DNA of 64,000 nucleotides. Origin: Bacteroidota bacterium. Its GTDB lineage: Bacteria; Bacteroidota; Bacteroidia; Palsa-965. Positions within the stretch are counted from its first letter, which is position 1. Each line of letters starts with the position of its first letter. Positions 5,556-29,384 of the stretch are shown here, piece after piece. The position numbers and the translations under genes are program-made. Under the pieces are notes generated by a model, which was given only the letters and a program-made list of their open reading frames with translations, was not told where the DNA came from and made no database searches. The stretch is from positions 186,001 to 250,000 of the forward strand of contig JADBYT010000002.1 in NCBI GenBank assembly GCA_020402865.1, given 5' to 3'.

Positions 5556-7532
5556 TTACTCTACTTCTGTGCCGGTCTGCTGCTGTTCGCCGGGCGAAAG
5601 TTGCACTTTGTATTTGCCCACATTGAGCGAATTGCCCTCAGTGCGGCTTTTGTTGAGGCCGAGATTGAGGCCCAGCGCACGAGTCATGCGGTTAAATGCA
5701 CTGCCAGCCACATCCCGGCCGGTAACCTTGGCCTGTGTGCCGGAAGTATAAGCTGAAGCAGTGTACTCGGTTGGTGTTCCGGGTTCGCGGTCTAATGTGT
5801 TTTTGGTATTCTGAAGGATAAGCTGCGGCAGCGAAATTCCGCTTCCTGATGTGGGTGGGGTGTAAGCCACACCGGGTTCATCCACTGAAATTGGCAAAAT
5901 GGCCACCGCTTCCGGAGCGAGTACGGCAAGCTGTCCGTTAAGTTTAGGTTCGGTGCGGTTTTGCGGCAGGGCTTTGGCAAAACGCGGACGGAAAGCGGCA
6001 CGTTGCGTGGTGTTGTTGGCGGTGTAGGCCGGCTGAGCAGGCTGCACATTATTCTGCTGCGGCGTGCTGTATTGCGGAGCAGTGTGCTGTTCAGCTACGT
6101 TGCTGGTATTGTCGGGCTGCCGGGGAGTAAACTCCTGCGCCGGTTTGCGTAGCTGCAGTTTGGCTACGTTGCCGGCAGTTTGGCCTTCAAAGGTGCCGTT
6201 CTGGTTGCGGTTCCACCAGAATGTAACCACAAACAGGAGCACGGCTGCCGCAGCGGCATAACGCACGTTTGCATTGAGCCACCACACCACTGCACCGCCG
6301 GTTTTGCGTTTCAGGCCGGCTTTGTCGCCATATACTACAGTTGTGTCTGCAGTGAGTATGGTTTGGCGCCAGGCTTCCATATCGGCGGCTGCTTGTGGGT
6401 TGGCAGCCATGTAGGCATGCAACTCGGCGCTTTGGGAGGCACTTAGTTCACCGTCAATTTCGGCCACCGCGTATTCATCAAAGTTTTCGGCTGTGAGGGT
6501 GGCGGCTGTCTGATACAAGGCAGCCTTGTGTTCAAACACAATTGTAGTATCGGGCGAGAGTACGGTTTGCTTCCAGGCATCAAGCTCGGCAGCCATTTCA
6601 GGGTGTTGTGCCACAAAGCGGTTGAAGCCTTCCAGTTCGGTGCTGTTCAGCGCATTATCAATGGCGGCCACAGCATACTCGGCAAAGTTGCCGGTGTTTA
6701 TTTCAACTAACGCTTTCTTGAGTCCGGCTTTGGCGTCAAACACTGCATCCGTATCAGGCTGCAGGCGTGTGCTGGAAAATAGTTCGTATTCTGCAGCCGC
6801 ATCAGAATTGCCTGCCAGATAGGCGTTGAAAGCGGCAAGTTCTGTGTGGCTCAGTTCGCCGTCCATGGCGCTTACGGCATATTCGGCAAAATTTGCGGAG
6901 GTAATTTCTACCGGCTGTTTGCGCAGGCTGTCTTTGTGTGCAAATACAATCTCGCTATCAGGCCGTAGCACGGTTTGGCCAAATAACTCAAAATCAGCTT
7001 TAAAGGCCGGGTTTGCGGCAAGGAAAGTTTCAAATGCGGCTGTTTCGGCAGTGCTCAGCGTGCCCTCAAGTGCAGCCACCGCCCATTGGTCGAACTCGGT
7101 GGCATTGACTACCGGCTTTTTGAGCAATTGCTTGTTCTCAAGCTTCTCACTGTAATCGGGCGCAAGTATGGTTTTGCGGAAAAGCTCAAGCTCATTGCGT
7201 TTATCAGGATGTGCATCCAGAAAACGTTCGAGTTTTATCTGGCCTTTTGTATCAAGTACATTATCAATTGCAGCGGCAAAAAACTCCTCGTAGTTAACTT
7301 CGTTAATATTCTCAGGCAGTTCAATTTGCCGGCGCAGCAGCTCCTTGTGTTCAAATACCGGCAAATCGGTTTCAGAAGTATCAAACGCCGGGCCTTCGTA
7401 GCTTTCAAAAAGTTCTTTTAAATCAGGGTGGGTATCCAGAAAGGCAAACAGCTCCGCCACCTGACCGGTACTCAGTTGCCCCTCGTAAAAATCGAGGAAC
7501 CACGCTTCACAGTTATGACGGTTAATATTCAT
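5556..7532 (-). CDS. Membrane anti-sigma-like protein with six tandem repeat units
   Basis: 658 residues, starting 20 bases after the ECF sigma gene and surely cotranscribed with it. Residues 1-412 are six consecutive units of about 68 residues; the common pattern is FxEYAVAAIDGELSxxExAxFxxYLA..NP, then a WxxT-LxPDT-VF-K-LKK ending. This helix pattern resembles the zf-HC2 anti-sigma domain but the zinc cysteines are missing; only the first unit keeps an H-x-C-like start. One membrane span follows at about 424-440, then a 215-residue Gln/Asn/Pro-rich region, presumably periplasmic. By context it holds the sigma factor at the membrane. Why it has six units is unknown. Confidence 0.75.
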   Translation of the reverse strand: MNINRHNCEAWFLDFYEGQLSTGQVAELFAFLDTHPDLKELFESYEGPAFDTSETDLPVFEHKELLRRQIELPENINEVNYEEFFAAAIDNVLDTKGQIKLERFLDAHPDKRNELELFRKTILAPDYSEKLENKQLLKKPVVNATEFDQWAVAALEGTLSTAETAAFETFLAANPAFKADFELFGQTVLRPDSEIVFAHKDSLRKQPVEITSANFAEYAVSAMDGELSHTELAAFNAYLAGNSDAAAEYELFSSTRLQPDTDAVFDAKAGLKKALVEINTGNFAEYAVAAIDNALNSTELEGFNRFVAQHPEMAAELDAWKQTVLSPDTTIVFEHKAALYQTAATLTAENFDEYAVAEIDGELSASQSAELHAYMAANPQAAADMEAWRQTILTADTTVVYGDKAGLKRKTGGAVVWWLNANVRYAAAAAVLLFVVTFWWNRNQNGTFEGQTAGNVAKLQLRKPAQEFTPRQPDNTSNVAEQHTAPQYSTPQQNNVQPAQPAYTANNTTQRAAFRPRFAKALPQNRTEPKLNGQLAVLAPEAVAILPISVDEPGVAYTPPTSGSGISLPQLILQNTKNTLDREPGTPTEYTASAYTSGTQAKVTGRDVAGSAFNRMTRALGLNLGLNKSRTEGNSLNVGKYKVQLSPGEQQQTGTEVE

Positions 7533-7552
7533 TGTACCTGAGAGATGATGAA

Positions 7553-8038
7553 TTACATTACTTTCTCTATGCTTCCGATATAATTTTTCAAAAATGTGCG
7601 GGCTCTGAAGATGTACACCTTTACCTGCGATTCATTCAGCCCCGTTATCTCGCCGATTTCTTCATACGAGTAGCCTTCGTAATCGCGAAGCAACACTACC
7701 GAACGCTGTATCTCGGGCAATTTATTTAACGCCTCCTGCAAAATTTCTTTCAGGTCGCTGTATTGCTTGTTATGCGATACCGCAATCATGGGTACTTCAT
7801 CCATACTGCCCTGCCGCTGATCTTTACGCAGGTAATCAATCATGGTGCGGTACGCCGTGGTAAACATGTACGACTTGGCATTTTTGGCTTCGGTTTCCGA
7901 AACTTTCAGCCAGAGTTTTTCATACGTATCCTGCACAATGTCTTTTGCCTTGTCTTTATCCTTTACATTCTTTAGAATGAATCGGTAAAGATTATCGGCA
8001 TACAGATCTACGCAGCGGTTGTATTCTTCAGCGGTCAT
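7553..8038 (-). CDS. ECF-type RNA polymerase sigma factor
   Basis: 161 residues, the usual size for an ECF (sigma-70 family) factor. Region 2 is seen in DKAKDIVQDTYEKLWLKV, with the -10 binding helices after it (SYMFTTAYRTMIDYLRKD); region 4 is YSYEEIGEITGLNESQVKVYIFRARTFLKNY, a helix-turn-helix for the -35 element. There is no N- or C-terminal extension. It is first in a two-gene unit with the repeat-containing anti-sigma protein, 20 bases downstream, so activity is likely controlled by release from that membrane protein. The regulon is unknown. Confidence 0.93.
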   Translation of the reverse strand: MTAEEYNRCVDLYADNLYRFILKNVKDKDKAKDIVQDTYEKLWLKVSETEAKNAKSYMFTTAYRTMIDYLRKDQRQGSMDEVPMIAVSHNKQYSDLKEILQEALNKLPEIQRSVVLLRDYEGYSYEEIGEITGLNESQVKVYIFRARTFLKNYIGSIEKVM

Positions 8039-8640
8039 GGCCGTTTGTTTTGCTTCCGGTTGTATGACGGGTATTGTTGCCCGCTTGTTACAGGCTAAGG
8101 TAAATTATTTTTCCGGGGCTTCCCTTTTCAGTGCCTGCGGGCTGTGTAAATTTATTCTTATTTGTTTTCGGGACTGATTTCCACTGGCCGGATGGTCGTT
8201 AAACGGGCACTATTTACCCTCCGACGACACATCTTTGCCGACAAGTGTGAACGAATCAATAAGTGCGTACAAATATTTACGAAAACGATTTTCTGGTTAT
8301 TAACAGATCTCTAAAAATGTATATGAACTGATTAATCATATAAAAGCTATATAGTGCTGATGATCATTTATATATACATAATGCAATAAAAAAATAATTT
8401 AATTTTTTATTGTGATAAATAATGTATATACATATATTGGGTTTTTGTCAAATGTAGATGCTTTTTAACCGGATAAAAATTGTTTTAGGAATATCTATTC
8501 AGTGTATGAATTAATGGTTTCATCATACATTTTTTCGCCTTCATCGGTATTTGTTTTGGAAGGTATATTAAGTTGTATTGTTTTGTTGAAACATTAAACG
8601 CGGTTACTGTTTCGCAGTAATTGTGTAATGTAATGGTTAG

Positions 8641-8733
8641 GTGGAGTTAACAAAGGCTGGCGTGCGCGCCAAAAGCAGGGGAAGGCGCCGCGCACTTAGC
8701 GGGTAATTCTGGAAACAGGGTTACCCGTTTTTT
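8641..8733 (+). ncRNA. Candidate structured small RNA ending in an intrinsic terminator
   Basis: Two strong hairpins stand in an otherwise AT-rich gap. The first pairs GTGCGCG (8662-8668) with CGCGCAC (8689-8695), with a further CC/GG pairing inside. The second is a 12-pair terminator stem with a GAAA tetraloop and six T. Both flanking genes are on the minus strand, so the plus-strand terminator has no protein gene to serve. No known RNA family was recognised and no exact TAnnTTTG promoter was found; TAATTGTG at 8618-8625 is one base off. The 5' end is a guess. Confidence 0.4.
8700..8733 (+). terminator. Orphan intrinsic terminator with GAAA tetraloop
   Basis: CGGGTAATTCTG (8700-8711) pairs with CAGGGTTACCCG (8716-8727) including two G-U pairs, closed by GAAA and followed by TTTTTT. 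It points to the plus strand although both neighbouring genes are on the minus strand. Confidence 0.7.
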
Positions 8734-8793
8734 AATTGCAGAAAAAAGAGGTTGTGATGTTCGTGTTGTGTGTAACGGATTCGAAAAGACAGA

Positions 8794-9435
8794 TCAGCCG
8801 GTTATGGAGCGGAGCGCACTGGCGAAATCGAGTTGCGTGGTGCGTGTCTTATCGGCGGCATACCAGGTGTGCACCTTCTCGATGAATTGTTCTTTTTGAA
8901 GGCCTTGCTCTTTCCACTGTGCAATGAGTTGCTGCAAGGCTGCCGGGCGCGGTCCCCAATGGCCGAGTACTTCGAGCGTGCCGGCATCAATAACAACCAC
9001 AATGGGTATGGCGCGTCCGCCGTTGGTAAGGAAATGATCCATTACGGCGGTGTGCTCATCGCGCAGAATTACTTTTACTGAGGCTTCCTTTATTTCGTTG
9101 GCCATGGCCTTTACCACGCCCAGCGTTTGTGCCGCATCGCCGCACCAGCCTTCGGTAATGAACAAGAGGCTGAGTTTGCGGGTAATTGAGCCAAGCTCCG
9201 CTTTCAGTTCGGGCAATACACTTACCGTTTTGCCAATACGCTTCATACGCTGCAGGTTCAGCCTGGCGTAATTAATCATGTATTCCGACTGGTCAGGGCC
9301 TGTGGTTTTGTTTTCGCTCATTAAGCGTTCGAGAAGACTGTTGTAGTCTTCCCAGCTCATGGCCGATTCGAGAAGTGCGGTATTTATTTCGGCAAAGCGG
9401 GCAGGTGTGTGCATAAGGTTGAAATCGGGAAACAA
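8794..9435 (-). CDS. Thioredoxin-like family protein (Thioredoxin_9 type)
   Basis: 213 residues. The segment SLLFITEGWCGDAAQTLGVVKAMA is a thioredoxin fold with a single redox-site cysteine (WCGDA) instead of CxxC, followed by a cis-proline region GRAIPIVVVIDAGTLEVLGHWGPRP. This matches the thioredoxin_9 family common in Bacteroidota, whose substrate is unknown. No signal peptide, so it is cytoplasmic. An in-frame ATG at 9414 is an alternative start. It follows the SPOR-domain gene after 32 bases on the same strand. Confidence 0.85.
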   Translation of the reverse strand: MFPDFNLMHTPARFAEINTALLESAMSWEDYNSLLERLMSENKTTGPDQSEYMINYARLNLQRMKRIGKTVSVLPELKAELGSITRKLSLLFITEGWCGDAAQTLGVVKAMANEIKEASVKVILRDEHTAVMDHFLTNGGRAIPIVVVIDAGTLEVLGHWGPRPAALQQLIAQWKEQGLQKEQFIEKVHTWYAADKTRTTQLDFASALRSITG

Positions 9436-9467
9436 AAAATCAGTTCATCACCTACGAAAAACCTGGG

Positions 9468-9875
9468 TTACCGGATGGGAGGTTTCTCAATTTCGCACTC
9501 TACAATAAATGCTTCGGGATATTCAGCTTTGATTTTTTTCAGAAAGCGGTATGCCTCCAGCTGGGTGCGGAAATCGCCTACGCGTACTTTAAAGTTGGGG
9601 GCATCATACGTAATATAGGCATGTGCCTCGGAGGCATATTTGCCCAGAAATTTCGATTTGATGGATTTGGCCCTGTCGTTATCCGCTCCGTAATGTATTT
9701 GCACACGCCAGCCTTTCATTTTTGCGTTTGCGTTGGTTTCAATGTGCTTACCCACAGCTGTTTTCAGACGAGGATCGGCATTTACGTCGCGTTGTAAACT
9801 ATCGGTTGACGGGGTTTGTGCCCTTAAGCCAAGGGTAACAAACAACAGAACGAGCAGGAGGGAATAACGAATCAT
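9468..9875 (-). CDS. Exported SPOR-domain protein
   Basis: 135 residues with a signal peptide (MIRYSLLLVLLFVTLGLRAQ, cleavage after RAQ). The mature part ends in a SPOR-type domain: GWRVQIHYG near the middle and FKVRVGDFRTQLEAYRFLKKI, then FIVECEIEKPP at the end. SPOR domains bind septal peptidoglycan lacking stem peptides, so a periplasmic or cell-wall role is likely. It is short, with no catalytic domain. Located upstream of the thioredoxin-like gene on the same strand. Confidence 0.88.
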   Translation of the reverse strand: MIRYSLLLVLLFVTLGLRAQTPSTDSLQRDVNADPRLKTAVGKHIETNANAKMKGWRVQIHYGADNDRAKSIKSKFLGKYASEAHAYITYDAPNFKVRVGDFRTQLEAYRFLKKIKAEYPEAFIVECEIEKPPIR

Positions 9876-10091
9876 GCAAGAACAAAATTAGGAAACCCCT
9901 GCAAATGGCAGGTTAGTTTTTTCGACAAGTGCAAGGTTTGTGCCGTTCTTCCGGGATAAAAAAATGACCAATTTCCTGTAAATGAGAGGCTGGTGTTTTC
10001 ATCCGGTTTTAACACTTATTTAGAATCGTTATAAATTAACCGGATGTAATTTTTTTTCCATTTGCAACGGATCGCCGAAGTGTGTTTCCCT

Positions 10092-10099
10092 TAAATTTG
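10092..10099 (+). promoter_or_regulatory. Promoter element of the act-cox operon
   Basis: TAAATTTG, an exact TAnnTTTG match, 58 bases before the ATG at 10158. A TTTG at 10061-10064 is too far away (27 bases) for the normal -33 spacing. Confidence 0.55.
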
Positions 10100-10157
10100 C
10101 CACGCCTTAAAGTGTAGGGCAATCCGGATATAAATGCCAACTGTCAACTATTCCTAT

Positions 10158-11441
10158 ATGAACAGCTCCCGGCAACATGCACGCCGCAACGGCATCGCGC
10201 TTGCTTTTTCGCTGATTCTCTCCCTCTTCTTCAGTGCGTCAGTTCACGCACAGGATGGAAAAGCGCTTTTCAAAGCTAACTGCTCTTCGTGTCACTATGC
10301 TTCCGAGAAAAAAGGAACGGGTCCAGGCCTCAAAGGCGTGCTCGACCGTATTCCCGGTGGTGACTGGAAGTACAAGTGGGTGAAAAATTCAGCCGCCATG
10401 GCCGCATCAGGCGATGCGTATGCCGTGAAAATCAAGGCAGAATACAACAACGGGGTAATGACCGCCTTCCCCAATCTCAAAAATGAAGAGATTGATGCCA
10501 TTCTGGCTTATGCCCACGAAGGTGAGAAAACACCAACACCGGTATTAGCTACCGACCCCAATGCCGGTGCCAAAACCGATGAAAAAGCGTCAGGCAACAC
10601 CAGCTTCATGGTAATCATTGTGCTGGTTCTGCTCATTGCGCTCATCGCCATTCTGCGTTATACCAAAATTAACCTGCGTAATGCGGTTAATGAAAAAGAA
10701 GGTCAGCCTGCCGAGGAAGCAATGCCTTTCCTTGATGCTGTTCGCCACTGGACGACCAACAACAAGCGTAAAGTTGCGCTTATGGGTTTGTTCATCTTTG
10801 GTGTGCTTATCGTAAAAGGCTGGTACGGACTGCAGGGTGTAGGTATTTATGCCAAAGAGGTGAAGAAAGACAAGTGGGTGGGTTACAAACCTTCACAGCC
10901 GATCAACTTCTCGCATAAAATCCACGCCGGTCAGAACGGTATTGATTGCAAATACTGCCACAGCACCGTAGAGAAGTCGAAAAACGCCAGCATTCCCTCT
11001 GTAAACATCTGTATGAACTGCCATAAGGCAATTAGCGAAACTGCTAATCCCGGTTCAAAAGAGGAAATTGCCAAGATTTACGCCGCTGCGGGTTATGATC
11101 CCGACAAGCAAACCTACAGCCTGCCCCAGCAGCCGGTGAAATGGAACAAAGTGCACGTACTGCCCGACCACGTATTCTTCAGTCACCAGCAGCACGTGAA
11201 AGTGGGTAAAGTAGAATGCGAAACCTGCCACGGCAACCTCAAGGAAATGACCGTAGCCGAGCAGCAGCGCCCGCTTACCATGGGATGGTGTATTGATTGC
11301 CACCGCAAGACCAACGTGTCTATGGAAGGCAATGGTTACTACACCCAGCTCCACGAGAAAATGAAAGAGAAGTATAAAGGACAAACCAGCTTCACGGTTG
11401 CCCAGATGGGTGGCATTGAGTGCTCACGTTGTCACTACTAA
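10158..11441 (+). CDS. actA: Alternative complex III multiheme cytochrome c subunit ActA, with extra N-terminal cytochrome domain
   Basis: Part of the quinol:cytochrome c oxidoreductase (alternative complex III); relays electrons on the periplasmic face. The 427-residue product has a signal peptide, a class I cytochrome domain with CSSCH at about residue 42 and a likely Met ligand in GVMTAF, a membrane span near 155-175, a second near 210-230, and a C-terminal pentaheme part with CKYCH, CMNCH, CETCH, CIDCH and CSRCH. That makes six heme sites in one chain. An in-frame ATG at 10134 is possible, but 10158 begins a normal signal peptide. First gene of the operon. Confidence 0.93.
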   Translation: MNSSRQHARRNGIALAFSLILSLFFSASVHAQDGKALFKANCSSCHYASEKKGTGPGLKGVLDRIPGGDWKYKWVKNSAAMAASGDAYAVKIKAEYNNGVMTAFPNLKNEEIDAILAYAHEGEKTPTPVLATDPNAGAKTDEKASGNTSFMVIIVLVLLIALIAILRYTKINLRNAVNEKEGQPAEEAMPFLDAVRHWTTNNKRKVALMGLFIFGVLIVKGWYGLQGVGIYAKEVKKDKWVGYKPSQPINFSHKIHAGQNGIDCKYCHSTVEKSKNASIPSVNICMNCHKAISETANPGSKEEIAKIYAAAGYDPDKQTYSLPQQPVKWNKVHVLPDHVFFSHQQHVKVGKVECETCHGNLKEMTVAEQQRPLTMGWCIDCHRKTNVSMEGNGYYTQLHEKMKEKYKGQTSFTVAQMGGIECSRCHY

Positions 11442-11498
11442 TCTTCAAATAAACAAAGCAAGCGTTTCCTAACGATATAATCAGATCGCGTACCCAAC

Positions 11499-14400
11499 AT
11501 GGCGAACGAGAAAACATACTGGAAAGGTCTTTCACAGCTGAGCGGTGACAATGCGGTTACCGAAAAGCACCAGCACGAATTTGCCGAGTACATTCCGGTT
11601 GAGCAGTTCATGGGCGATAAAGCCACACTCGAACAATCATCAACCAGCCGCCGCGACTTCCTCAAGTTCCTCGGATTCAGCACGGTAGCAGCTACTCTGG
11701 CAGCCTGCGAAGCGCCGGTAACCAAAGCGGTGCCTTACGTTAACCGTCCTGAGGAAATTACTCCCGGTGTGGCTAACTGGTATGCTACAGCTTTCTTCGA
11801 CGGACATGATTATGCCGAAGTGCTGGTGAAAACCCGCGAAGGCCGTCCGATTAAACTTGAAGGAAACGAGCTTTCCAAAGTAACCATGGGCGGTGTAAAC
11901 GCCCGTGTACATGCTTCCGTTCTTTCGCTGTATGACTCCAACCGCCTCAAAGGTGTTACCACCAAAGGCGGACAGTCAGCCACCTGGGCTGATGCCGATA
12001 AAGTAATTGGTACGAAACTGGCTGCTTCTAAAGGCATTGCCATTGTTTCTTCTACCATCATCAGCCCCTCAAGCAAAGCTGTTATTGCCGGATTTGCTGC
12101 CAAATACGCCAACACACGCCACGTTACTTACGATGCGGTGTCGTATGCAGGTATGCTCAAGGCAAACAAATCTACATTTGGTACTGCCGTTATTCCGACC
12201 TACCGTTTCGACAAGGCCGAAGTAATTGTAAGCCTCGGTGCCGATTTCCTCGCAAACTGGCTTTCACCGCTTGAGCATGCACGCCAGTATGGCATGACAC
12301 GCAAAGTAGGCAAGGACAAGAAGACCATGTCCAAGCACTACCAGTTTGAAACCATCCTTTCTCTTACCGGTTCCAATGCCGACGAGCGTTTCCCCGTGAA
12401 ACCCTCTGAAATGGCGCAGGTAGCACTCGACATTCTCAACGGCACCGCTGGCAAAGTAGCTGCCGATGGTGTGAAGAAGGTTGTAGCCGCCCTTGAAGCT
12501 GCAAAAGGTAAGGCGCTTGTTGTAGCCGGCTCAAACGATGCCGCGCTTCAGCTGGTGGTAAACGAAATCAACAAGAAAATCGGTGCGTATGGCAATACCA
12601 TTGACATCAGCACTCCCGATTATACGCATCAGGGCGATGATAACGCACTGAAAACACTGGTTGAAGATCTCAATGCCGGTAAAGTTGACACCGTAATTTT
12701 CTGGAACAGCAACCCGGTTTACACCGCACCTGCTGCGCTCGGTTTCGACAAGGCACTGGCTAAGGCTTCACTCAAAATTTCGTTTGCAGGCAGTATGGAC
12801 GAAACAGCCGCGCTTTGCGACTGGGTTTGCCCTGACCACCACTACCTCGAAGCCTGGAACGATCACAACCCGCGCCGCGGCCACTTCAGCCTGCAGCAGC
12901 CGGTTATCAATCCGCTTTTCTCAACCCGCCACGCACAGGAAAGCCTGTTGCTTTGGTCGGGTAACAACACCACATATTACAACTACCTGCAGAATTACTG
13001 GCGCAGCAATTTCTTCGGTATGCAAACTGCATTCGGCGATTTTGCCCAGTTCTGGAACAATTCGGTGCACGATGGTGTGGCCCAGCTTCGCCCGCAGCTT
13101 GTGGTGACTGAGGAAATTTCTCAGGCTCCTCCGGTGGCCGATACTACTGCCACAAATCCGCTCTCGAAGATGTTAAAGTCGGGAATGAACCTGAACGACT
13201 TTATAGCCTTCAGCGGCGGCACCATTTCGCTCGATGAGGCGAAGTCGCAGCTTGCTTCACGCAAGGGCGGTGCCATGGAAGTGGTATTCTATCAGAAAAC
13301 ATCAATCGGTAATGGCAATCAGGCCGGCAACCCCTGGTTGCAGGAAATGCCCGATCCGATTTCGAAAATTACCTGGGACAACTACATCACCATGCACCCG
13401 CTGGATGTAAAAGAAGGCAACTTCTTTGGCATGGTAGAAGGCAGCGACAACAACCTGATGGTTCGTTTTGACCAGATGGAAGACGAGCTGAGCGTGGCTC
13501 AGGTAGCTGTAAATGGTGTAACCGTAGAACTTCCGGTTTGGGCACAGCCCGGTCAGAAGCGCGGCACCGTAGGTATTGCCCTTGGTTATGGCCGCAAAGG
13601 TGCCGGTAAAGCAGCCGAAGGCCGTGGAGCCAACATCTATCCCGCAGTAGCACTGGCTGCTTCGGGCACGATGAACTACGAGGCATACGACGCTAAGATT
13701 ACCAAGACCGACAAAACACACAAAATTGCGGCTACCCAAACGCACCACACGCTGATGGGCCGCAACGAAGATATTATTCACGAAACCACACTTGCAGCCT
13801 ACGTAAAAGACGAGCGTGCCGGCAACGAGCCGATTATGCTCGAAACCTACAAAGGCAAAGCCAATGTGGAAGAAGTGAACCTGTGGAATGATTTCGAGCG
13901 CCCGAACCACAAATGGGCACTGGCTATCGACCTGAACTCGTGCATTGGCTGCGGTGCCTGCGTGGTAAGCTGTACTGCCGAAAACAACGTTCCGGTTGTA
14001 GGTCCCGACGAAATCCGCCGCAGCCGCGAAATGCACTGGCTCCGTATCGACCGCTATTTCAGCAGCGAAACGGTGAAGGAAGTGGAAGAGGAAAAAGGCG
14101 AAATGGGCACCAAAGAGCTCTACCGCAACATGGAAAACCCCGCTTTCGACAATCCGAAAGTGGTATTCCAGCCGGTAATGTGCCAGCACTGCAACCACGC
14201 TCCGTGCGAAACCGTGTGCCCGGTAATTGCTACCAACCACAGCAGCGAAGGTCTCAACCAGATGACCTACAACCGTTGTGTAGGTACCCGTTACTGCGCA
14301 AACAACTGTCCCTACAAAGTGCGCCGCTTCAACTGGTTTAACTACGTGGATTACCACCGTTTCAAAGACTTCAACCCTTCGCAGGACGAAGTTGGCCGTA

Positions 14401-26838: not shown

Positions 26839-28749
26839 ATGAACAAGAAAATTACCCTCGTCGCTGCTGTAGCTGTAATGGGTTTTTCATCAGCCTTCGC
26901 TCAGGTACAGCGTATGGTGCTTGTTGAAGAATTTACACAAGCTTCCTGCGGTCCCTGCGCTGCGCAGAACCCTGCGTTCAATGCAACCCTTGCACCTAAT
27001 CTGAGTGTGAAAGTGGCTGCTATTAAGTATCAGACCAACTGGCCTGGTGTGGATCCGATGAACACGCAAACTCAGACATGGGTTGGACCTCGTGTATCTT
27101 ACTATGCCGTAAATGGTGTTCCCGATGCCATTGTTGATGGTAACGTATATCAGGGCGCACCCAGCGGTGTGACACAATCTGGTATCGACACCCGTTATGC
27201 TGTAGGTTCACCTTTCCAGCTCGACCTTACACACACCATGTCGCCTGACTTTGACTCAATCTTCATCACGGCAAATATTACCGCAGCACAGGCATTCACT
27301 TCAAACGGTGCTTTGAAACTGCATGTTGCTCTGATTGAGAAAGAAATTATTTTCTCATCGCCTCCCGGATCAAATGGCGAATTGGATTTCTATGGTGTAA
27401 TGCGTCAGATGTTGCCGAATGCTTCTGGCACCACGCTTAACGGCACCTGGGCTAATGCCGACAACGCTGTATTTACGTTTGCAGTAGCCAAGCCGTCATA
27501 CATTTATGATGTAAACCAGCTTCAGGTTGTTGCTTTTATTCAGAGCGACGGAAACAAAGAAGTTCAACAGGCTGCAATCACTAACCCGATTGCGCTGCCC
27601 AACGATGCACAGCCCACCGCACTTGCAGGTCTTCCCTCAACCGGTCTGGCTTGCTCGGCTGTTACCTTTACTCCTGCCGTAACCGTTAAAAACACCGGTG
27701 CGAATACACTTACTTCGCTCGACATCAACGTTAGCGTAGCTTCAGTTGCTCAGCCTGTGTACAACTGGACCGGTTCTATTGCTCCCGGTGCTACTTCAGT
27801 AATTACGCTGCCTGCAGTAACCTACAACGGTGCTTCTGGCAACGTGGCTGTAACAGTTTCTACTGCTAACCCGAACGCAACTGTTGACGTGAACACCACA
27901 AACGATACGCGCAACGGTTCATTCCTTTACTATGGCGGAACTGCGCAAACATCGCCCTACCAGCAAGGCTTTACAGCTACTGCATTCCCTCCCGGAATCG
28001 TTGGTATCATTAACAATGATAATGATACCTACACCTGGGCCCGTTCAACAGCCGGTGGTTTTGCACAAGGTGTGGGCAGTGCCCGTTTGAATTTCTACAA
28101 CGCTGCTGCCGGTACTGTGGATGATATGGTACTCGGAAACTTTGATATGACCACTGCTTCTGTGGCTTCAATGACCTTCAGCGTAGCTTACCGTCAGTAC
28201 TCTTCAGAAAACGACCGTCTCCAGGTTATGGTATCTACCGATTGTGGTGCTACCTGGGCTACCGTATTTGATAAGCAGGGAAGCACACTTGCTACTGTTG
28301 CTGCCGCTACAACAAGCTTTACCCCCAACAACGCCAGCCAGTGGCGCTCAGAGTCGGTAAGCCTTGCAAACTACGCTAACGCTACCAACCTCATCATTAA
28401 GTTTGTTGGTACCTCTGATTATGGTAACAACCTGTATGTTGATGATATCAACATCGGTACCGTAGGTGTAGAAGAAGCTGCCCTCGCTGGCGTAGGTCTT
28501 AACATCTTCCCGAACCCGTTTGATGCTTCAACCACCGTTCAGCTCAACCTTGAGCAAACCGAAAACATCACCGTAGAAGTTTACAGCCTCGACGGCAAAC
28601 TTGTACAGGCTGAGAACAAAGGCGAAATGAACGCTGGTCAGCACAACATTATGCTCGACGGTGCAAACCTGGCTGATGGTATGTACTTTGTAACCATCCG
28701 TACCGGTAACAACGGCACAATTACCCGCAAAGTAACTGTTGCTCACTAA
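26839..28749 (+). CDS. Omp28-family thioredoxin-fold protein with T9SS sorting domain
   Basis: 636 residues. Signal peptide MNKKITLVAAVAVMGFSSAFAQ, then an Omp28-type thioredoxin-like domain starting MVLVEEFTQASCGPCAAQNP with the redox motif CGPC at residues 37-40. A middle CARDB-like or fibronectin-like region (about 240-370), a choice-of-anchor-like jelly roll (about 370-550), and a type A sorting domain (NIFPNPFDASTTVQLNL, YSLDGKLV, LADGMYFVTIRTGNNGTITRKV) follow. It should act at the cell surface; the partner or substrate is unknown. Start at 26839 gives the signal peptide; an earlier ATG at 26806 is less likely. Next genes also carry thioredoxin folds. Confidence 0.88.
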   Translation: MNKKITLVAAVAVMGFSSAFAQVQRMVLVEEFTQASCGPCAAQNPAFNATLAPNLSVKVAAIKYQTNWPGVDPMNTQTQTWVGPRVSYYAVNGVPDAIVDGNVYQGAPSGVTQSGIDTRYAVGSPFQLDLTHTMSPDFDSIFITANITAAQAFTSNGALKLHVALIEKEIIFSSPPGSNGELDFYGVMRQMLPNASGTTLNGTWANADNAVFTFAVAKPSYIYDVNQLQVVAFIQSDGNKEVQQAAITNPIALPNDAQPTALAGLPSTGLACSAVTFTPAVTVKNTGANTLTSLDINVSVASVAQPVYNWTGSIAPGATSVITLPAVTYNGASGNVAVTVSTANPNATVDVNTTNDTRNGSFLYYGGTAQTSPYQQGFTATAFPPGIVGIINNDNDTYTWARSTAGGFAQGVGSARLNFYNAAAGTVDDMVLGNFDMTTASVASMTFSVAYRQYSSENDRLQVMVSTDCGATWATVFDKQGSTLATVAAATTSFTPNNASQWRSESVSLANYANATNLIIKFVGTSDYGNNLYVDDINIGTVGVEEAALAGVGLNIFPNPFDASTTVQLNLEQTENITVEVYSLDGKLVQAENKGEMNAGQHNIMLDGANLADGMYFVTIRTGNNGTITRKVTVAH

Positions 28750-28784
28750 TTTGATTTTCTCGATCTGAATATCATTAAATGACC

Positions 28785-28827
28785 GACCGGCAATTCTGGC
28801 GCAATCTTTGCAAAAGAATTGCCGGTC
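28785..28827 (+). repeat. Perfect 13-base inverted repeat between the Omp28 and TlpA genes
   Basis: GACCGGCAATTCT (28785-28797) and AGAATTGCCGGTC (28815-28827) form a stem with a 17-base loop. No T-run follows, so it is not a textbook terminator; it may be a 3'-end stabiliser, or a weak terminator of the gene upstream. Confidence 0.6.
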
Positions 28828-28865
28828 ACATTTAATCACTCGCTCAACAACTCAACATTCAGCTC

Positions 28866-29384
28866 ATGAAACGAATTACTCTTTTTCTTTTGCTTATTGC
28901 CGGCTTTACGGTAGCTACTGCATTTCGTGCTGATGAAAATCCTGTGCAGGCAATTCCCTCGGTTACCATTAAAACCATGGATGGCAAGCCCTTTAATACG
29001 GCCGACATCAAGAACGATGGTAAACCCGTAATTATCAGCTTTTGGGCTACCTGGTGTGCGCCCTGTAAAAAAGAACTCAACGAAATTCTTGATGTGTACG
29101 AAGAATGGCAGGCCGAAACCGGCGTGAAAATGATTGCCATTTCTATCGACGATCAGCGCAACTCGATGAAAGTTAAACCTCAGGTGGAAAGCATGGGCTG
29201 GCCTTGGGATGTTTATCTGGATGAAAACCGCGATTTTGGTCGCGCAATGAATGTAAACAACGTTCCCCACACGTTTGTGCTCAACGGTAAAGGCGAAATT
29301 GTATGGCAGGTTGCCTCTTACAACGCAAATGCCGGTGTAAAAATGATTCACGACGCAGTGCTTAAAGCTGCAGGAAAACAATAA
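28866..29384 (+). CDS. TlpA-like thiol-disulfide reductase, exported
   Basis: 172 residues. Signal peptide MKRITLFLLLIAGFTVATAF; thioredoxin fold with FWATWCAPCKKE (CAPC at residues 64-67) and a cis-proline at NVPHTFVLNGKGEIVW. Acts as a periplasmic disulfide oxidoreductase, by family. It lies between an Omp28-T9SS protein and a DUF6029 protein on the same strand, suggesting that it keeps partners of this cluster reduced; that is inference. Confidence 0.93.
   Translation: MKRITLFLLLIAGFTVATAFRADENPVQAIPSVTIKTMDGKPFNTADIKNDGKPVIISFWATWCAPCKKELNEILDVYEEWQAETGVKMIAISIDDQRNSMKVKPQVESMGWPWDVYLDENRDFGRAMNVNNVPHTFVLNGKGEIVWQVASYNANAGVKMIHDAVLKAAGKQ

Follow-up and report, generated by a model that had tools for sequence, protein, structure and literature searches.

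Genomic Context of the Locus

The window, that is, the whole 64-kb stretch of DNA that was analysed, contains a 755-nt intergenic gap between two minus-strand genes, encoding an ECF sigma-70 factor and a thioredoxin-like protein, which agrees with the strand assigned to both flanking genes in an earlier sequence-only reading. The features of the gap and of its surroundings are listed below, with H1, H2 and H3 designating successive predicted hairpins.

7553-8038, minus strand: ECF sigma-70 factor (Pfam Sigma70_r2 and Sigma70_r4_2), divergent from the putative RNA
Between 7553-8038 and 8794-9435: 755-nt gap
8555-8585, plus strand: promoter-like site of the Bacteroidota sigma-A type, 9 of 10 scored positions, weak evidence
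8591-8631, plus strand: H1, 5' hairpin, modelled with 18 pairs, a 2-nt bulge, and a 3-nt loop
8636-8651, plus strand: H2, weak hairpin, 5 pairs, loop GUGGAG
8652-8659, plus strand: single-stranded linker predicted by the fold model
8660-8693, plus strand: H3, GC-rich hairpin, 10 pairs
8671-8683, plus strand: H3 loop AAAAGCAGGGGAA, 13 nt, purine-rich, possible pairing site
8698-8733, plus strand: intrinsic terminator, 12 core pairs (14 with A-U/G-U ends), GAAA loop, U6
8794-9435, minus strand: thioredoxin-like protein (Pfam Thioredoxin_9, 5.2e-38), convergent with the putative RNA

The base composition of the gap is uneven, with a GC content of 0.18-0.32 from about 8250 to 8600, followed by a GC island of 0.52-0.53 at 8600-8750; the putative RNA itself is 49% GC. 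On the sigma factor side, the element TGTAAC-N17-CGTC was observed at 8066-8092 of the minus strand, 54 bases before the start codon of the ECF sigma gene. The form TGTAAC-N16/17-CGTC is located 49-79 bases before all six of its closest orthologues (loci L028-L033, from five species of the source genus and one of another genus), and is absent before a distant orthologue (L034). This element is probably the promoter by which the sigma factor controls its own expression.

Fold and Strand of the Putative RNA

Four consecutive hairpins (H1, H2, H3, and the terminator) are found on the plus strand. The fold of positions 8590-8735 reached -58.5 kcal/mol, compared with -40.8 kcal/mol (sd 3.6) for shuffled sequences (z -4.87), and none of the 200 shuffles was as low; the shorter segment 8600-8735 gave a z of -4.30. 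On the reverse strand as a whole, the z is only -1.82, and H1, H3, and the terminator lose 3 to 10 kcal/mol, as seen for H1 (-17.3 kcal/mol on the plus strand, -7.7 on the minus) and for the terminator (-20.6 and -12.5 kcal/mol). Because of this low minus-strand score, and because several G-U pairs become A-C on the other strand, the structure is assigned to a plus-strand RNA.

The sequence-only reading had described a GC-rich stem ahead of the terminator, which corresponds to H3 and is formed by the pairing of 8660-8664 with 8689-8693 and of 8666-8670 with 8684-8688, closing the 13-nt loop. H2 contributes only -0.7 kcal/mol by itself and may not form. With H1, H2, and the promoter-like site added, the RNA unit is larger than the one first described. 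The region at about 8591-8733 of the plus strand is likely to be a stand-alone intergenic sRNA gene, with a putative transcript of ~140 nt.

Intrinsic Terminator

The terminator core consists of 12 continuous pairs (8700-8711 with 8716-8727), two of them U-G, capped by GAAA at 8712-8715 and followed by U6 at 8728-8733. The stem, the GNRA tetraloop, and the U-tract are thus those previously read from the sequence. The terminator scan lengthens the stem to 14 pairs and ranks it first in strength among the 10 terminator-like sites of 7000-11500. When the 755-nt gap was resampled 300 times with a first-order Markov model, no T-tailed stem of at least 12 pairs was obtained, the best having 10 pairs compared with 14 on the real plus strand; the same search found no T-tailed stem on the minus strand of the gap. 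The terminator exceeds chance expectation.

Strong hairpins are not rare within the window, and the unusual point about the hairpin at 8698-8733 is that it ends no gene. The strand that carries it has no coding gene to terminate: no open frame of 100 codons runs across it, the gene upstream is transcribed away from it, and the one downstream lies on the opposite strand. Two other folds of the window were recorded. The segment 61641-61784 of the plus strand folds very stably (-55.2 kcal/mol at 42% GC, the second strongest for its GC content in the window), in which a near-perfect hairpin is followed by a long branched stem overlapping the end of a minus-strand frame. At 28741-28884 of the minus strand, between open frames, a long near-perfect inverted repeat GACCGGCAATTCT...AGAATTGCCGGTC lies within a longer stem.

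The hairpin could also be a mere transcription barrier, shielding the thioredoxin-like gene from plus-strand read-through without any functional RNA. Its location, downstream of this gene and convergent with it, would suit such a role, and intergenic terminators are common, with other strong ones present in the window. However, no plus-strand gene lies upstream to supply transcription in need of a stop, and a barrier would require neither H1 nor H3, yet both fold strongly on the same strand. We consider this explanation unlikely.

Promoter-like Site and Predicted 5' Boundary

The consensus described for the -7 box of the Bacteroidota sigma-A promoter is TAnnTTTG (PMC7366714). The promoter-like site ahead of H1 comprises TTTG at 8555-8558, a 19-nt spacer, and TTGTTTTG at 8578-8585, whose -7 box does not have the A of the consensus, making the site a modest one. 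About 1.3% of composition-matched Markov sequences had an equally good site within 3 nt of the given place; the match is suggestive only, since the place was chosen after the structure had been seen. The site suggests that transcription might start near 8591, where H1 begins.

Just 5' of the RNA, a short hydrophobic frame, MVSSYIFSPSSVFVLEGILSCIVLLKH (about 27 codons), was noticed at 8515-8597 of the plus strand. The stems and the terminator could accordingly form the 3' end of a longer transcript of this strand that encodes a small unannotated protein, for example this frame, with its ATG near 8515 and its TAA near 8597, just ahead of H1. Type I toxin-antitoxin systems, which include small hydrophobic peptides with structured transcripts, provide a precedent. 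Nevertheless, no start context can be recognised for the frame, chance often produces frames as short as this one, and the promoter-like site is located inside it, not before it. The plus-strand frames of at least 50 amino acids in the gap (8019-8177 and 8162-8314) end hundreds of bases upstream of the RNA. The frame is probably there by chance, and a protein-coding origin of the structure appears quite unlikely.

Search for Homologues

No homologue of the RNA was detected in any other genome searched. The DNA search of 59 related genomes returned the self-match and short chance matches only, and a covariance model built from the single sequence found one copy in the source genome (G000) and no credible match in 11 other members of the family. 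The same model gave no credible match in even samples of 197 genomes of the class and 395 of the phylum, both including the source genome; these large scans used strict filters, and a model built on one sequence has little power for distant relatives. For these reasons, and given that only six other genomes of the genus were among those searched, the term lineage-restricted denotes here a restriction among the genomes searched. A second, weak match of the model in G000 (C8, E 0.018) was rejected as chance, being located inside an 845-codon frame and breaking in the terminator stem. Bacterial small RNAs are commonly found in no other genome.

The flanking genes have orthologues whose surroundings could be inspected. 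The ECF sigma factor is kept in seven other family members (84-94% identical, with 58% in G009), and the DNA upstream of the sigma gene was unlike the gap in a by-eye comparison of six relatives. For L029, the by-eye view was of the wrong side of the sigma gene; the unfiltered model scan took in the whole locus on both strands. This full scan of the relatives' sigma and thioredoxin loci gave a best E of 0.24, to a plain AT-rich hairpin. The thioredoxin-like orthologues are 31-59% identical, and the DNA behind them is unrelated to the gap. Querying GTDB and viral contigs with the thioredoxin-like protein confirmed no named relative.

In each of the relatives examined, different DNA lies next to the sigma gene, as it does at insertion-prone places, which would be consistent with a piece of a mobile or repeated element that folds by accident. 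Against this, both the RNA and the whole gap are single copy in the source genome, BLAST searches against phages and plasmids gave no match, and searches with exact hairpin patterns gave no match in viral contigs or in genome contigs; this origin is very unlikely. Finally, although the hairpin lies 60-200 nt downstream of the thioredoxin-like gene, and the nearest relative (L022) has a hairpin and T-tract just behind its thioredoxin-like orthologue, a role as terminator or 3' end structure of this minus-strand gene is extremely unlikely, since no T follows the hairpin on that strand, the gap offers no T-tailed stem, and H1, H3, and the terminator are all weaker; the missing U-tract means that the terminator is not the end of this convergent gene.

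The earlier proposal of an orphan structured small RNA is thus partly supported and is probably the best reading of 8591-8733 on the plus strand, through its fold and a terminator beyond chance; no relative was found to carry the putative RNA.

Known RNA Families and Possible Protein Partners

The earlier remark that no known family fits was borne out: none of the 4227 Rfam families matched in the window at its gathering score, and a local search at a permissive threshold gave chance-level matches only (E 3-9). A 6S RNA was rejected, as neither RF00013 nor RF01685 matched and the fold lacks a long closed rod with a central bubble; for RF01685, control genomes gave no match either, so that this search carries little information on the rest of the genome. 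RF00013 finds no 6S RNA in any of the 12 family genomes. Bacteroides has 6S RNA, and a divergent 6S RNA in these genomes may escape the RF00013 model.

A CsrA sponge of the CsrB/RsmZ type was considered because of GGA in the loops, and was rejected because CsrA had no match in G000, with three controls positive. Hfq gave no match in the 12 family genomes, with five controls positive, and an Hfq-dependent trans-acting sRNA was rejected in turn. As for an RRM protein acting as chaperone, no PF00076 match was present in G000 at the threshold used, and the controls were positive. Pairing with the translation starts of 48 genes of the window revealed no target above shuffled controls.

Proposed Mode of Action

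We infer the transcription of this RNA, its start site, and its pairing mode as follows. A sigma-A-type promoter at 8555-8585 would direct transcription from a probable start at ~8591, and transcription would end in the U6 tract of the terminator, yielding an RNA of about 140 nt. At its 5' end such an RNA would carry a protective hairpin, followed by H3 with its purine-rich loop of 13 nt and by the terminator. Most likely, it would act in trans, with the H3 loop or the 8632-8659 linker pairing with mRNAs, without Hfq. More tentatively, and with slightly less than even confidence, it could represent a new sRNA family of one lineage of the genus, characterized by four hairpins and a purine-rich 13-nt loop and regulating mRNAs independently of Hfq, of CsrA, and of any RRM protein.

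Comparison with Known sRNAs

In B. thetaiotaomicron, a Rho-independent terminator and a start site within the gap are the signature of high-confidence intergenic sRNAs, both being present in 8 of the 9 sRNAs confirmed by Northern blot, and 27 of the 49 high-confidence intergenic sRNAs are strain-specific (PMC7366714). Because of this last proportion, a lineage-restricted sRNA is expected, not surprising. The candidate RNA resembles GibS and other intergenic sRNAs of this species (PMC7366714) in its predicted size (about 140-145 nt), its intergenic location, its promoter-like site and intrinsic terminator, and the lack of an obvious Hfq. However, the 5' seed of GibS is single-stranded and conserved, and GibS itself occurs as a conserved RNA in Bacteroides, whereas the candidate RNA opens with a long hairpin and has no known relative; its GC content is 49%, compared with a mean of about 35%.

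A second likeness, by description and not by sequence, is to Rfp18 and other independent transcribed regions of Flavobacterium psychrophilum, which are also strongly folded independent RNAs (PMC9723704). Pairing by way of a stem-loop has been predicted for Rfp18 (PMC9723704), which is conserved in its genus, whereas the candidate RNA was not found in the six other genomes searched of its own genus. With 6S RNA (RF00013, RF01685) it shares the character of a stand-alone RNA of roughly similar size. The candidate RNA is an ordinary kind of find; if transcribed, it would be one more lineage-specific regulatory RNA in a phylum with few known sRNA targets and where Hfq is often absent, leaving the picture of how such RNAs work unchanged.
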